From positions 1 to 54,839 of the forward strand of contig CAMAVK010000005.1 of NCBI GenBank assembly GCA_945861715.1: a stretch of 54,839 nucleotides of DNA. The letters are read 5' to 3'. Numbering within the stretch: position 1 is the first letter of the stretch; the number at the start of each line of letters is the position of its first letter. Below are positions 3,843 to 8,356 of the stretch, in pieces. The notes beneath the pieces were generated by a model that did no database searches, was not told where the DNA came from, and was given only the letters and a program-made list of their open reading frames with translations. A program made the position numbers and the translations under genes. Source of the DNA: Candidatus Woesearchaeota archaeon (GTDB lineage Archaea; Nanobdellota; Nanobdellia; Woesearchaeales; GW2011-AR9).

Positions 3843-5642
3843 TTATATTGTATTCTTGCTTGCGATTTTGTCAATGGTTTGGTAGTCAGTCGTGGTTGCT
3901 TTGTCGTATCGAATGCGTTCGGCAAATGCGTTGCTTAGGTGGAAACTTTGTGCTGTTGTTGGATTGAATCCTGCTGCGAATGGGTTGAGGTTGTATTTGA
4001 TGTCAAATACTTGGGCTTCAAGGATAATTGGGGTTTGGGTGTTTACTAGGAGGTGTGGTTTTGGTAGTGTGTTGGATTTATCTTTGACGTCTTTATTTTT
4101 TGAGAGATAGGTTATGAGATCTTGGGTTGCATGTGGGTCTTCTTTTGTTGCTTGTCTTATTTGTTGGAATAATAGTTTGTGGGTTTGGATGAATTCGTCA
4201 CGGATTGTTTTATGTTTTGCAGTTGGATAGTATGCATCAGGTTGATCATTATATCTACTGTATAGAGATAGGACACTTTGGCCGCGAGGTATTTCTTGCA
4301 TGAATGTTTGCAGGTCGTATTCTGCAAGAGCAGGTATGGTTTGTCGGAGGTGGATGGTTGCGTGGTGGGAGTAGATGTCATGCAAGGTGGTGATGTTTGT
4401 GTGTAATATTGGTGTGTGCTCGATTGCGGTTGCAATTTCGGTGCGGAGGTCGTCTAAACGATCTTTTTGCCCTTGTGTTTTTATTTGAACTCCATTTGAG
4501 TCTAGATTTACTTTGAAGGCTGGTACATAGGTGTTTGTGGTTTGGTCATAGAGACCGAGAAGTGCACCCTGCATGTTTTGCGATGTTGCAGGTTCAGATG
4601 GGTTTGTGAGGTAGAGACCAAGGAGTGCTGCGTCAATTGTTTCGTAGTTTTTTATTTTGGTTGTTTTGGAGATGCTAATTGTATCTTGAATGGAGGTGTT
4701 TTTATTTGGTGTTATGTATTGGCTGACACATACTCCTTCAAGCCCTAATTTTTCTGATTTTTTGATATAGAGTTGTAAGTCACGCTTGGATTTTATTCTC
4801 GTACGTTCTGTTACGCGTGCGTTAAGGTCTGCTTTTTTGATGTGTTGGTCTAGTTCAGTTAATAGTTCGTCGACTGCTTTGTAGTTTTTTGGGATGGTTG
4901 ACAGTGAGATGAGATTTGCTTGTTGGGTTTCCCTACTTTGGGTCCATGTGTTTGGGTCTGCAATGGCAAAGAGTGAGTGAAACGAGAGGGTGAGTTGGTA
5001 TTCATCCTGCGGGGTGTGGTTTTGGTTGAATAATCTGTTGTTGTTGAAGTAGGTTTGTAGGAGTTCATCGTCTAGTTTTCGTTCCGTTCGTGTTGGCCAG
5101 AAGGTTGCGTTAGGAAGACGTTTTTGGACGCGATTGAATCCTGCTAGGTGTTCATAGTTTTTGTTTATGAGTTCGCAGTCACCAATCATAACTGGGAGGT
5201 GGGTGAATGTGGTTGTAAGTTCGGGGAAGAGTCGTAGGTCGTAGGGAGTGAATTGTCGTGTGATTGCGCTTGCATGTGGGTGTGTTGCTGGGGGAGTTTG
5301 GTGTTTGCCAATATGGAGTTGCATACGGTAACCATTTTCTTTTTTTGATGCAATGGTCCAAATCCTTTGGTTTTTGGTTGATAGTTTGATATCTTTTGAG
5401 TTGTCAGTGAAGGTTGGATTGAGGCAGGCGAGGGCTTGACCAATAATAGGTGTTTGGTGGTTGAGGTAAATTGCACGTTGATATTGTGAAAATTGTTGGA
5501 TGTGTTGGTCGGTTTCTCTGGTTAGTTCTGGGACGTAACGCTCTAGTTCTTTTCTTAAAAATTGTTCTTCTAGGGTGTGTGTCCAATTTTGAAATAGGAG
5601 TTGTTCAATACGGTTTGTTGTTTCAGGTTTTAGGAAGTTCAT
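3843..5642 (-). CDS. Divergent ATP-dependent DNA/polynucleotide ligase
   Basis: The protein is 599 residues with no overall likeness to a standard ligase, but the nucleotidyltransferase motifs appear in order. Motif I is KENG at 101-104 (candidate adenylated Lys101; Asn replaces the usual Asp). Motif III is DCE at 155-157, motif IV EGV at 302-304 and motif V KIK at 329-331, followed by YETIDAALLGLY, which matches the ligase stretch after motif V. Motif VI is RIRYDK at 576-581. Motif I usually lies near residue 250 in archaeal DNA ligases, so the N-terminal DNA-binding domain is largely missing. The III-IV and V-VI intervals are much longer than usual, implying insertions in the adenylation and OB domains. 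The composition is rich in Asn, Gln, Thr and His, unlike its neighbours. It could seal DNA or RNA ends; the substrate is unknown. Confidence 0.72.
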   Translation of the reverse strand: MNFLKPETTNRIEQLLFQNWTHTLEEQFLRKELERYVPELTRETDQHIQQFSQYQRAIYLNHQTPIIGQALACLNPTFTDNSKDIKLSTKNQRIWTIASKKENGYRMQLHIGKHQTPPATHPHASAITRQFTPYDLRLFPELTTTFTHLPVMIGDCELINKNYEHLAGFNRVQKRLPNATFWPTRTERKLDDELLQTYFNNNRLFNQNHTPQDEYQLTLSFHSLFAIADPNTWTQSRETQQANLISLSTIPKNYKAVDELLTELDQHIKKADLNARVTERTRIKSKRDLQLYIKKSEKLGLEGVCVSQYITPNKNTSIQDTISISKTTKIKNYETIDAALLGLYLTNPSEPATSQNMQGALLGLYDQTTNTYVPAFKVNLDSNGVQIKTQGQKDRLDDLRTEIATAIEHTPILHTNITTLHDIYSHHATIHLRQTIPALAEYDLQTFMQEIPRGQSVLSLYSRYNDQPDAYYPTAKHKTIRDEFIQTHKLLFQQIRQATKEDPHATQDLITYLSKNKDVKDKSNTLPKPHLLVNTQTPIILEAQVFDIKYNLNPFAAGFNPTTAQSFHLSNAFAERIRYDKATTTDYQTIDKIASKNTI

Positions 5643-5683: not shown

Positions 5684-5740
5684 GCGCCTCAGGGCTGAGT
5701 TTGTCTTCTTGCCGTCGATTTTGTTCAGTGGCTGAGGCGC
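5684..5740 (-). other. 9-bp-stem hairpin in the 5' leader of the ligase gene
   Basis: GCGCCTCAG (5684-5692) and CTGAGGCGC (5732-5740) are perfect inverted repeats enclosing 39 bases. On the minus strand a TATA-like CTTATATGT lies at about 5764-5772, which would start transcription close to 5740. The ligase mRNA would then begin with this hairpin, followed by an A/C-rich leader and AGAGGC before the ATG at 5642. The region holds no gene. A regulatory role is inference. Confidence 0.45.
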
Positions 5741-5900: not shown

Positions 5901-5907
5901 AATATAT

Positions 5908-5944
5908 TGCTGGCAATTAAATGTTCGAATATTTACTGCCAGCA
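5908..5944. promoter_or_regulatory. Second inverted repeat upstream of trmB-like gene
   Basis: TGCTGGCA (5908-5915) and TGCCAGCA (5937-5944) are inverted. ATATAT stretches flank both arms and extend the symmetry, with one extra base on the right. The repeat ends about 22 bases before the chosen start codon at 5967. It may be an operator or an mRNA leader hairpin. Confidence 0.45.
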
Positions 5945-5966
5945 CTATATATTGGTGGTGACTATT

Positions 5967-6674
5967 ATGTATGATGAACTTCAACATGCGGGTTTAACAG
6001 GAACAGAATCAAAGATTTATGTGATGCTTCTTGATTTGAATAAGTCACAAGCGGGTGTATTGTCTCGCAAGACCGGGATTCATCGTCGTAGTATTTATGA
6101 TGCGCTTGATCGGTTAATTGAGAAAGGGCTCGTTTCTTATATTGTTGAAAATGGAAAGCGGTTCTATATGCCAGCTGACCCTTTGCGACTCGCGGAGATT
6201 ATGCGGGTTCAACAAGAGGCGGTGCTTGCGGTGGTGCCATCGCTCACTGCACGGTTTGCTGAGCAGAAAGGGAAGCAGGAGACACAGTTTTTTCGTGGTA
6301 AAGAAGGAATTCGGTCTGTATTTGATGATCAGATTTCTGCGGGTAAGGATGTGTATATCATTGGGGCTTCACATTTAGCGAAGGATTTGTTGAAATATTA
6401 TTTACCTCATTACACCAACAGTCGGGTGAAGAAGAAAATTAAATTGCATTGTATTTATTCTGGGGAGAAACATGTTGATGGGAGTGGGGTGCCACTTGCT
6501 GAGGTAAAATATTTGCCAAAAGAGTTTGGGTCACTGGTGTCAACCAATATTTGGGGTGATAAAGTAGCCATTATACTTTGGATTTTTGATCCGGTGGCCA
6601 TTGTGATTTCTCAAAAGGATATTGCGGTGGCGTTTAAAGGGTATTTTGATATGTTGTGGAAGATTGCGAAGTAG
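5967..6674 (+). CDS. TrmB-family transcriptional regulator
   Basis: This is a 235-residue TrmB-type regulator. Residues ~1-70 form a winged helix (LTGTESKIYVMLLDLNKSQ, then RKTGIHRRSIYDALDRLIEKG, then a wing ending GKRFYMP). A short coiled linker (~75-105) is followed by the TrmB effector region (FFRGKEGIRSVFDDQISAGK to FDPVAIVISQ). The family senses sugars or other small ligands and controls promoters; the ligand here is unknown. The start at 5967 was chosen because GGTGGTGA lies 5 bases upstream and the wing begins at once; an in-frame ATG at 5886 falls inside the palindromes. The final 27 bases of the gene are duplicated at about 7.67 kb, beyond the HEPN-MNT genes. Confidence 0.85.
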   Translation: MYDELQHAGLTGTESKIYVMLLDLNKSQAGVLSRKTGIHRRSIYDALDRLIEKGLVSYIVENGKRFYMPADPLRLAEIMRVQQEAVLAVVPSLTARFAEQKGKQETQFFRGKEGIRSVFDDQISAGKDVYIIGASHLAKDLLKYYLPHYTNSRVKKKIKLHCIYSGEKHVDGSGVPLAEVKYLPKEFGSLVSTNIWGDKVAIILWIFDPVAIVISQKDIAVAFKGYFDMLWKIAK

Positions 6675-6684: not shown

Positions 6685-7077
6685 TTATTTGTTTGCTAAT
6701 TCTTTTAATTGAAGGATTATATCTTCTATTTTTTGTTGGTTTTGGGTGATGAAATTTTCATTGATGAAGAATCCTTCATAAGAGATTCGGTTTCTATGGT
6801 CTCGAAGTTGTTGGAGGAAGAGGCGTGTTTGTTCCGGAAGTTTTGTGGATCTTGCTATGTGGTCGATTAATTCTTGGTGTGCTCCTTCTCCCACTGTTTT
6901 TACTCCTTGTTTAGCTCCAATAGCTTCAAGGAGTTTGTGGATGATGTCATAGTAATCAGTTAAGCTGTTGCTTGGGTATTTTGTTATGTCGGTCGTTTGA
7001 AGTCTTTCAAGGGTTAATTCAGCCATTTTTGATAGTGAGTTGGCTTTTTGGGGATCAGGTGATGTTTTGATTATCAT
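6685..7077 (-). CDS. HEPN-domain protein (putative toxin)
   Basis: This 130-residue all-helical protein has a late conserved motif LRDHRNRISYEG (~92-104). That matches the Arg-rich active-site helix of HEPN proteins, which act as RNases or as partners of minimal nucleotidyltransferases. The classical R-x4-6-H is not perfect here: the position usually held by His is Tyr/Glu, as in some MNT-paired HEPN families. It overlaps the upstream nucleotidyltransferase gene by 4 bases, a sign of translational coupling. In characterised HEPN-MNT pairs the HEPN protein is the toxin and the MNT neutralises it by nucleotidylation; that role is inferred here. The pair lies between two copies of a 30-base repeat and is very AT-rich. 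Confidence 0.75.
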   Translation of the reverse strand: MIIKTSPDPQKANSLSKMAELTLERLQTTDITKYPSNSLTDYYDIIHKLLEAIGAKQGVKTVGEGAHQELIDHIARSTKLPEQTRLFLQQLRDHRNRISYEGFFINENFITQNQQKIEDIILQLKELANK

Positions 7078-7622
7078 GGATATCCCTCTAGAAATCCTTG
7101 AAGTATTGTGCCGTTTATAATGTTGTTTTTTAATTCTGGGGCGTATTCTTTGAAATTTGGTTGAAAGTGAAGTTCTATTTTTCGGTTTAGTTTTTTTTCA
7201 AAGGATTTTAAATTTATTTCTTGGGGTTGGGCTTCAATAAATATGTCAATATCACTGGTTTCAATATCTTCTCCTCGATTGTAGCTTCCAAATAAGACTG
7301 TTGATTTTGGGAAGGTTTGTTCTTCAATATGTGGTATTAATCCTGAATTAAGAAGGTTGTTTAGATTTTGTATTTTTTTTGTGATGATAAATAATTTCTC
7401 ATTTCGGTTTGCGATGTACTCTGGAAAATTCCTTTTTCCTTTTTTCTCTATTATTTTAATAATGATGTTTTTTTTAATTAGGTTTATGAGGTTATTTTTT
7501 GTTGAGGTGTGCGCTAGCTTGGTTTTTTGGCTGATGGATGCGAGGCTGAATTTAGTGGTGGGGTTGTTATAGAATAAATTTAATGTTGTGGCCATGCTAC
7601 TTTTTTGTATCATATAGTACAT
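7074..7622 (-). CDS. Minimal nucleotidyltransferase with N-terminal HTH (putative antitoxin)
   Basis: The protein is 182 residues. Residues ~10-65 form a winged helix-turn-helix (SLASISQKTKLAHTSTKNNL). The C-terminal half carries the nucleotidyltransferase signature FGSYNRGEDIETSDIDIFI, with Gly112-Ser113 and Asp124-x-Asp126 as the metal site. This is the MNT partner of the HEPN protein encoded next. The HTH could allow it to bind its own promoter. On the minus strand, TTTATAAAG lies near 7637-7645; a leaderless start at the ATG at 7613 is nearly as likely as 7622, which has AGAGGATT upstream. Lys and Asn content is high, unlike neighbouring genes, which fits recent acquisition. Confidence 0.78.
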   Translation of the reverse strand: MYYMIQKSSMATTLNLFYNNPTTKFSLASISQKTKLAHTSTKNNLINLIKKNIIIKIIEKKGKRNFPEYIANRNEKLFIITKKIQNLNNLLNSGLIPHIEEQTFPKSTVLFGSYNRGEDIETSDIDIFIEAQPQEINLKSFEKKLNRKIELHFQPNFKEYAPELKNNIINGTILQGFLEGYP

Positions 7623-7664
7623 TTATGTAATCCTCTTTATAAATTTTGTGTGGGTTTTTGTGTG

Positions 7665-7694
7665 TGATATGTTGTGGAAAATTGCGAAGTAGTG
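7665..7694 (+). repeat. Right copy of 30-bp direct repeat
   Basis: It is 29/30 identical to 6647-6676 and still encodes the trmB C-terminal codons plus stop, but it has no gene in front. It lies 42 bases past the start of the MNT gene and about 57 bases before the AbrB start. Confidence 0.8.
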
Positions 7695-7716
7695 TTAGTT
7701 AAAATATTTTGGATAA

Positions 7717-7726
7717 AATTTATAAG
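7717..7726 (+). promoter_or_regulatory. TATA box of abrB-mazF-like operon
   Basis: AATTTATAAG is centred about 30 bases before the ATG at 7752, so the transcript is probably leaderless or nearly so. Confidence 0.6.
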
Positions 7727-7751
7727 TAAGACTACTCTTACTGGTCTTACT
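7725..7751. promoter_or_regulatory. Inverted repeat between TATA box and antitoxin start (candidate operator)
   Basis: AGTAAGAC (7725-7732) and GTCTTACT (7744-7751) are perfect inverted repeats, with a related CTCTTACT between them. They cover the expected transcription start. The position suits self-repression by the AbrB-type protein or the toxin-antitoxin complex. Confidence 0.5.
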
Positions 7752-8018
7752 ATGATTGAAACGGTAAAAGTATCTTCAAAGGGACAGATCGTTATTCCGG
7801 AACGTATTAGGAATAAATATCATATCACCGAAGGTACAAAATTGATTCTTCGCGAAAGTAAAAATACTCTTATACTGGAGACGGAAACGGAGTTTCTTCA
7901 TGATCTTGAATTGATGGAGAAGCAGAAAGAGAATCTAGGTTGGTTAATGGTTTCTCAAAAGAGTCTTGAAAAGGATTGGCTTAGTGAGGATGAAGAAGAG
8001 AATTGGAAGGATTTGTGA
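7752..8018 (+). CDS. AbrB/MazE-family antitoxin
   Basis: The 88-residue product begins with a swapped-hairpin AbrB DNA-binding domain: VKVSSKGQIVIPERIRNKYH followed by EGTKLIL and an ILETE strand. The C-terminal ~40 residues are acidic and aromatic (LGWLMVSQKS, DWLSEDEEENW), which is typical of the toxin-wrapping tail of an antitoxin. The ATG at 7752 fits the TATA box; the upstream in-frame extension would run through the operator. The MazF-like gene follows after 2 bases. The pair probably represses its own promoter through the inverted repeat just upstream. Confidence 0.88.
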   Translation: MIETVKVSSKGQIVIPERIRNKYHITEGTKLILRESKNTLILETETEFLHDLELMEKQKENLGWLMVSQKSLEKDWLSEDEEENWKDL

Positions 8019-8020
8019 TT

Positions 8021-8356
8021 ATGGTTTCTCGCTATTCTAAAGGTGATGTGATTGTTGTCCCTTTTTCATTTGCCGATTTATCTGGTGTTAAAAAACGTCC
8101 TGCGTTGGTTTTAGCATCGTTACCTGGTGATGATATTGTTATTTGTCAAATTACCGGTAAACTGCTAAGTGATGAGTTTTCAATTTCTCTTTTAGATGGA
8201 GATGTTATTGGTGGAAGTTTGCAAAAGATAAGTTGGATTCGTCCTAATAAAATGTTTACTACAGATAGTTCTATTGTTAGTTATAAAGTTGGTCAGATTA
8301 GTATTTCTAAAATTAAAGATGTTGAGATAGTCTTGGTTGAGTTGTTTACTCGCTGA
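8021..8356 (+). CDS. MazF/PemK-like toxin
   Basis: This 111-residue protein shows the PemK/MazF SH3-like barrel: KGDVIVVPFSFADLSGVKKR followed by PALVLAS, then ICQIT, SWIRPNKMFT and a C-terminal helix. Family members are mRNA endoribonucleases; the basic KKRPALVL turn and the Ser/Thr-rich strands match the usual active-site neighbourhood, although catalysis is inferred. The ATG at 8021 lies 2 bases after the antitoxin stop codon. A TTG at 8003 would overlap the antitoxin gene and is less likely. Confidence 0.82.
   Translation: MVSRYSKGDVIVVPFSFADLSGVKKRPALVLASLPGDDIVICQITGKLLSDEFSISLLDGDVIGGSLQKISWIRPNKMFTTDSSIVSYKVGQISISKIKDVEIVLVELFTR

Follow-up and report, generated by a model that had tools for sequence, protein, structure and literature searches.

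The gene discussed here raises two questions: whether its product, which carries ligase motifs in an unusual setting, is a ligase, and on what it may act. It lies in a stretch of 54,839 nucleotides from a Candidatus Woesearchaeota archaeon (hereafter the window), which is contig C5 of a genome of 1.296 Mb. A sequence-only reading had taken the product for an ATP-dependent ligase, highly divergent and lacking a DNA-binding domain, and had proposed a possible new subfamily acting on RNA or on unusual DNA ends. On the whole, we consider the protein likely to be an auxiliary ATP-dependent polynucleotide ligase of a new family, most likely sealing nicks or joining ends of DNA for repair. What we describe below as the long family is a real, conserved and previously unprofiled family of probable ATP-dependent DNA ligases, whose chemistry would be the usual one by its motifs, with a new architecture and an altered nick site. 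The features are collected in Table 1.

Table 1. Features of the window (plain positions) and of related loci (positions with a locus name)
Feature	Position	Strand	Basis or remark
Divergent ATP-dependent ligase-family protein	3843..5642	-	ATG ORF, 599 aa, 0 internal stops
N-terminal extension, residues 1-62	5457..5642	-	Alignment; no Pfam match
Motif I, K101-E-N-G104	5331..5342	-	Invariant in 8 long members (alignment)
Motif III, D155-C-E157 (D155-x-E157)	5172..5180	-	D and E invariant, 8/8 members
F169, nick-site Phe, corresponds to LIG1 Phe635 (kept)	5136..5138	-	Alignment, 7qnz numbering
Motif IV, E302-G303 (then V)	4734..4739	-	E302 and G303 invariant, 8/8
Motif V, K329-I-K331	4650..4658	-	Both lysines invariant, 8/8
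OB-domain insertion, ~136 residues (391-526)	4065..4472	-	Absent from short and canonical ligases
S570-N571, columns of LIG1 Arg871-Phe872	3930..3935	-	Arg gone 8/8, Asn571 invariant
Motif VI, R576-I-R-Y-D-K581	3900..3917	-	R578, D580, K581 invariant
Imperfect 19-nt inverted repeat (84%)	5902..5950	.	Shared upstream region
TrmB-type regulator, divergent to ligase gene	5967..6674	+	Pfam TrmB; orthologues; adjacency
HD-domain protein	L074:8012-8572		Beside short ligase
HD-domain protein	L071:6773-7345		Beside short ligase
HD-domain protein	L073:5413-6012		Beside short ligase
HD-domain protein	L085:917-1495		Beside short ligase

Motifs and architecture of the long family

A single-sequence search with the window protein returned one relative, in G015 (same family, 48%), and a two-row profile run over the order returned six more, all full length. 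The seven full-length homologues are 39-47% identical to the window protein and come from woesearchaeal genomes; counting the window's own genome, 8 of the order's 353 genomes have the long family. When 371 genomes were drawn more widely from the phylum, no member turned up outside this order, and the family is so far confined to this single woesearchaeal order. Viral contigs and phage and plasmid records contained no homologue, so that an origin from a virus or plasmid is unsupported.

Motifs I, III, IV, V and VI are all in order and exactly where the sequence-only reading had placed them. Thirteen residues are invariant in the eight members (K101, E102, N103, G104, D155, E157, E302, G303, K329, K331, R578, D580 and K581), so homologues conserving the residues first listed do exist, with the exception of R576, which is His or Gln in two members. 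K101 is the predicted AMP-accepting lysine, and Asn103 stands in place of the usual Asp. In the mechanism we propose, Lys101 would take AMP from ATP, the AMP would be passed on to the 5'-phosphate at a break, and attack by the 3'-OH would close the break, Glu157, Glu302, Lys329/Lys331 and motif VI each acting as usual; the ligase activity and the DNA substrate are read here from motif conservation, homology and architecture.

The spacing of the motifs was measured in one alignment of 40 ligases, with a canonical set from related genomes. The motif I lysine is residue 99-103 in the long family and 246-315 in canonical ligases, in agreement with the earlier remark that motif I starts about 150 residues early. 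The intervals noted as enlarged are indeed so, III-IV by about 40 residues (142-152 vs 98-108) and V-VI by about 130-140 (249-257 vs 114-126), and the I-III and IV-V intervals are normal. No PF04675 (DNA-binding domain) match is found in the long protein, which has 100 residues only ahead of motif I, and residues 1-62 stand in place of the DNA-binding domain of about 220 residues of archaeal ligases. The OB insertion lies between the conserved K377-V-N strand of the OB domain and the strand leading into motif VI. With these two added elements, the members measure 589-616 aa. The homologues are 44-54% identical to the window protein over the core and 45-60% at the C-terminus; for residues 1-62 the figure is 31-40%, and for the OB insertion, the least conserved part, 21-30%. 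The net charge of the insertion varies from -5 to +11 across members and is not consistently basic, so that a role in DNA binding is not evident and none is claimed. With no canonical N-terminal DNA-binding domain, the protein would have to contact its substrate through the NTase-OB core, the N-terminal extension of about 60 residues and the OB insertion. An AlphaFold2 model made from two sequences (the window protein and L020) had a pLDDT of 31.7, too low for an adenylation pocket around Lys101 to be recognised.

Compared with the archaeal/eukaryal Lig type (LIG1; PF04675, PF01068 and PF04679), the long family shares the motif order, the NTase-OB core, the RxRxDK form of motif VI and the equivalent of Phe635. 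However, it has no DNA-binding domain, has KxNG instead of KxDG, has lost the equivalent of Arg871, is longer by about 40 residues in the III-IV interval and by about 136 within the OB domain, and falls under the Pfam cut-offs. By the defining features of the archaeal Lig family, the long family is outside it.

Relationship to other ligases

No Pfam or NCBIfam model matches the long proteins above its cut-off. For PF01068 (DNA_ligase_A_M), weak matches occur in five of the eight members, with 13.1 bits where the curated cut-off requires 26.2 and E 0.004 for the best member. PHROG 114 (phage ATP-dependent DNA ligase) matches four members, at best with E 5e-7, and the ligase model PRK08224, which matches three, is among the best NCBIfam matches. 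Much stronger is the likeness to a group of short woesearchaeal ligases of the same order (353-415 aa, e.g. L011, L012, L019 and L085), which also have no DNA-binding domain and are recognised by PF01068. An hhalign comparison of the long and short profiles gave probability 99.7, E 6e-27 and score 207, with the alignment extending through motif VI, while eight shuffled and one reversed short profile, run in local mode as controls for the same pair, scored at most 24; server profile-profile runs also gave 99.7%. The short profile in turn matches the canonical core with E 6e-52, whereas the long profile against the canonical one alone is weak (28.9%, E 6e-4), and the homology of long and canonical ligases therefore rests on the short ones as intermediate. 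In an unrooted tree of 40 cores, the long and the canonical ligases each form a clade (both 100/100), the short ones being a grade between them, and the branch of the long clade is very long, with 2.59 changes per column. Taken together, the conserved motifs, the monophyly of the long clade and the profile-profile homology to DNA ligases without a DNA-binding domain bear out both a divergent ATP-dependent ligase lacking that domain and a new subfamily. A Csm6/Csx1-type profile match over residues 362-481 (E 5e-5 and 1e-4) was seen in the window protein and in none of the seven homologues, and is for that reason read as chance.

The same comparisons bear on the substrate. An RNA ligase or RNA-repair enzyme might have an enlarged architecture and a non-standard motif I, and an archease gene does lie two genes from the G015 homologue. 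However, this neighbourhood is found in one genome only, none of the eight members matches RNA_ligase (PF09414) at E up to 1, the nearest relatives are DNA ligases without a DNA-binding domain, and the OB domain with motif VI fits the C-terminal pattern of DNA ligases. Together with the weak DNA-ligase matches, these points speak against the suggested action on RNA, which we regard as improbable. As for Asn in motif I, the precedent that could be documented, AsfvLIG (PMC6344480), is a DNA and not an RNA ligase.

Another reading is that of an ordinary minimal ligase of the LigC, LigE or LigD type which has merely drifted. The absence of the DNA-binding domain would fit, as in LigC, LigE and the Chlorella virus type, which likewise consist of the core, and so would PRK08224 among the best NCBIfam matches. 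Yet minimal bacterial and viral ligases such as LigC and LigE have 250-370 aa (PMC8455567) against about 600 aa here. They have no such OB insertion and are not close in sequence, while the added N-terminal and OB elements are conserved in all eight members. In addition, the long proteins form a separate clade in the tree of long, short and canonical cores, and no Ku (PF02735) match is found in the eight genomes; we hold this reading to be very unlikely. A third ligase-like protein of 297 aa with KIDG was seen in G257 (L069:1438-2331), about 1 kb from a Ku gene, and the two possibly form an archaeal NHEJ pair.

The preferred reading, an auxiliary DNA ligase, is in accordance with the rest of the ligase repertoire. 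A second, standard ligase, for which the sequence-only reading advised a search, is present in the genome of the window on contig C2 (569 aa, all three Pfam domains, PF04675 included). All eight genomes with a long ligase have a canonical one, seven of them one copy and G094 two, and the long ligase is accordingly taken as auxiliary. The short ligases are like it in being auxiliary to a canonical ligase in most genomes checked, in lacking the DNA-binding domain and in being the nearest relatives by profile, and they have a TrmB-type neighbour in common with the window gene; they differ in having KxDG and Arg at the nick site (with one exception, in G232), in lacking the large insertions and in standing outside the long clade. 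Mutual exclusion of long and short ligases is not claimed, because the lack of any shared genome (8 against about 15 of 353) compares with about 0.3 expected by chance. Ligase surveys filtering on PF01068 or on length would miss the long family, and the ligase repertoire of these small-genome archaea thus exceeds its annotation.

The altered nick site

For the nick site, the positions of the LIG1 residues Tyr569-Asp570-Gly571, Phe635 and Arg871-Phe872 were taken from the 7qnz chain (919 residues). In HsLIG1, the Asp570-Arg871 salt bridge contributes to fidelity and efficiency (PMC6344480). In the 40-row alignment, Asp in motif I is accompanied by Arg at the Arg871 column in every one of 31 ligases, and none of the nine ligases with Asn has this Arg. 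All eight long members combine KENG with the absence of Arg at this column, which holds S, T, N or E followed by an invariant Asn, and between motif VI and this column the long members align without gaps. The nine Asn ligases are not independent, since eight of them make up the long clade; they represent two events here, one in the long ancestor and one in the short ligase of G232, with AsfvLIG as an additional case from the literature. The G232 enzyme (L091:1495-2556, minus strand), which has no DNA-binding domain, carries KYNG in motif I and Leu at both the Phe635 and the Arg871 columns, i.e. three of the four unusual nick-site residues of AsfvLIG, and a TrmB-type regulator adjoins its gene.

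AsfvLIG is active and error-prone with Asn153, Leu211, Leu402 and Gln403 (PMC6344480). The likeness to the long family, compared for the core only, lies in Asn in motif I and in the lack of Arg at the LIG1 Arg871 position (PMC6344480); AsfvLIG also has an N-terminal domain of its own instead of the DNA-binding domain. Unlike the long family, it is viral, has Leu/Gln at 402/403 where the long family has S/T/N/E and the invariant Asn, and has lost the Phe635 equivalent which the long family keeps. With Asn103 and a non-Arg residue beside the invariant Asn571 standing where other ligases have the Asp-Arg pair, imperfect ends are expected to be tolerated differently, and by analogy the woesearchaeal long family may be error-prone or otherwise altered in fidelity. 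These changes fit action on unusual DNA ends, the second activity proposed at the outset. A fuller model is offered tentatively, and we find it rather doubtful: the Asp-Arg nick clamp would have been dismantled in favour of an Asn-based arrangement and the OB insertion would have taken over substrate capture from the DNA-binding domain, allowing mismatched, gapped or unusual ends to be joined, with similar changes arising independently in AsfvLIG and G232. The matched loss of both clamp residues, in two lineages here and in an error-prone viral ligase, makes the fidelity role of the clamp testable in natural cellular enzymes.

A further reading is that the ligase fold has become inactive or has been repurposed, for instance for end binding or for protein AMPylation. 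Besides Asn in motif I, the very long branch would agree with this, as would the residue after motif IV, Lys/Arg in relatives but Gln in six of the eight members, and a motif IIIa Asp that is not clearly kept. Against it, K101, E157, E302, K329, K331, D580 and K581 are invariant over eight divergent members, residues which an inactive protein would not need, and AsfvLIG is active with Asn in motif I (PMC6344480). We consider a loss or change of function unlikely, and an active ligase remains the preferred reading.

Genomic neighbourhoods

Around the genes of the long family, no conserved operon is found. The other members have no common neighbours except in two genomes of one genus, and no shared repair neighbours. 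In the window, the ligase gene lies divergently beside the TrmB-type regulator. Its orthologous group (44-53% identity, the next paralogues having at most 38%) is represented in eight other genomes of 17 searched. In four of these eight (G019, G154, G322 and G210), the orthologue lies within about one gene of a short ligase; G209 has the orthologue and the short ligase each at a contig end or close to one, and three genomes of one genus have the orthologue elsewhere. If placement were random, the chance of four of eight would be about 1e-8, as estimated with a crude binomial that takes no account of relatedness. In G232, outside the 17-genome set, the orthologue also adjoins the short ligase. 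With TrmB orthologues beside the short ligases of other genera, the long ligase of the window seems to sit where those genomes have their short ligase. We infer that ligase transcription is probably controlled by the adjacent regulator, and the imperfect repeat in the shared upstream region is a possible operator. A perfect 9-nt inverted repeat, GCGCCTCAG/CTGAGGCGC, also lies upstream of the ligase (window 5684-5740; RNA fold z-score -2.3), and this region has no Rfam match.

Further neighbours were observed in other genomes. Within one family, an Lrp/AsnC-type regulator lies close to the long ligase of one genus (G293 and G294; L035:6647-7102 and L036:9700-10155) and to the short ligase of another (G295 and G296; L071:5131-5577 and L073:2333-2785). 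A gene of the PD-(D/E)XK nuclease family adjoins the short ligase in G093, G031 and G101 (L075:1446-2138, L087:1536-2189 and L089:2641-3294), which is a repair-like context. An HD-domain protein of about 190 aa is directly downstream of the short ligases of G154, G295, G296 and G049, and a protein of 328-333 aa with no Pfam match is paired with KSDG short ligases in G210 and G257 (L076:8890-9891 and L077:8741-9727). In the window itself, two possible toxin-antitoxin modules lie beside the TrmB-type gene (6685-8356): an HTH-nucleotidyltransferase (MNT-like) gene with an overlapping ORF of 130 aa, and after these a MazE/MazF-like pair.
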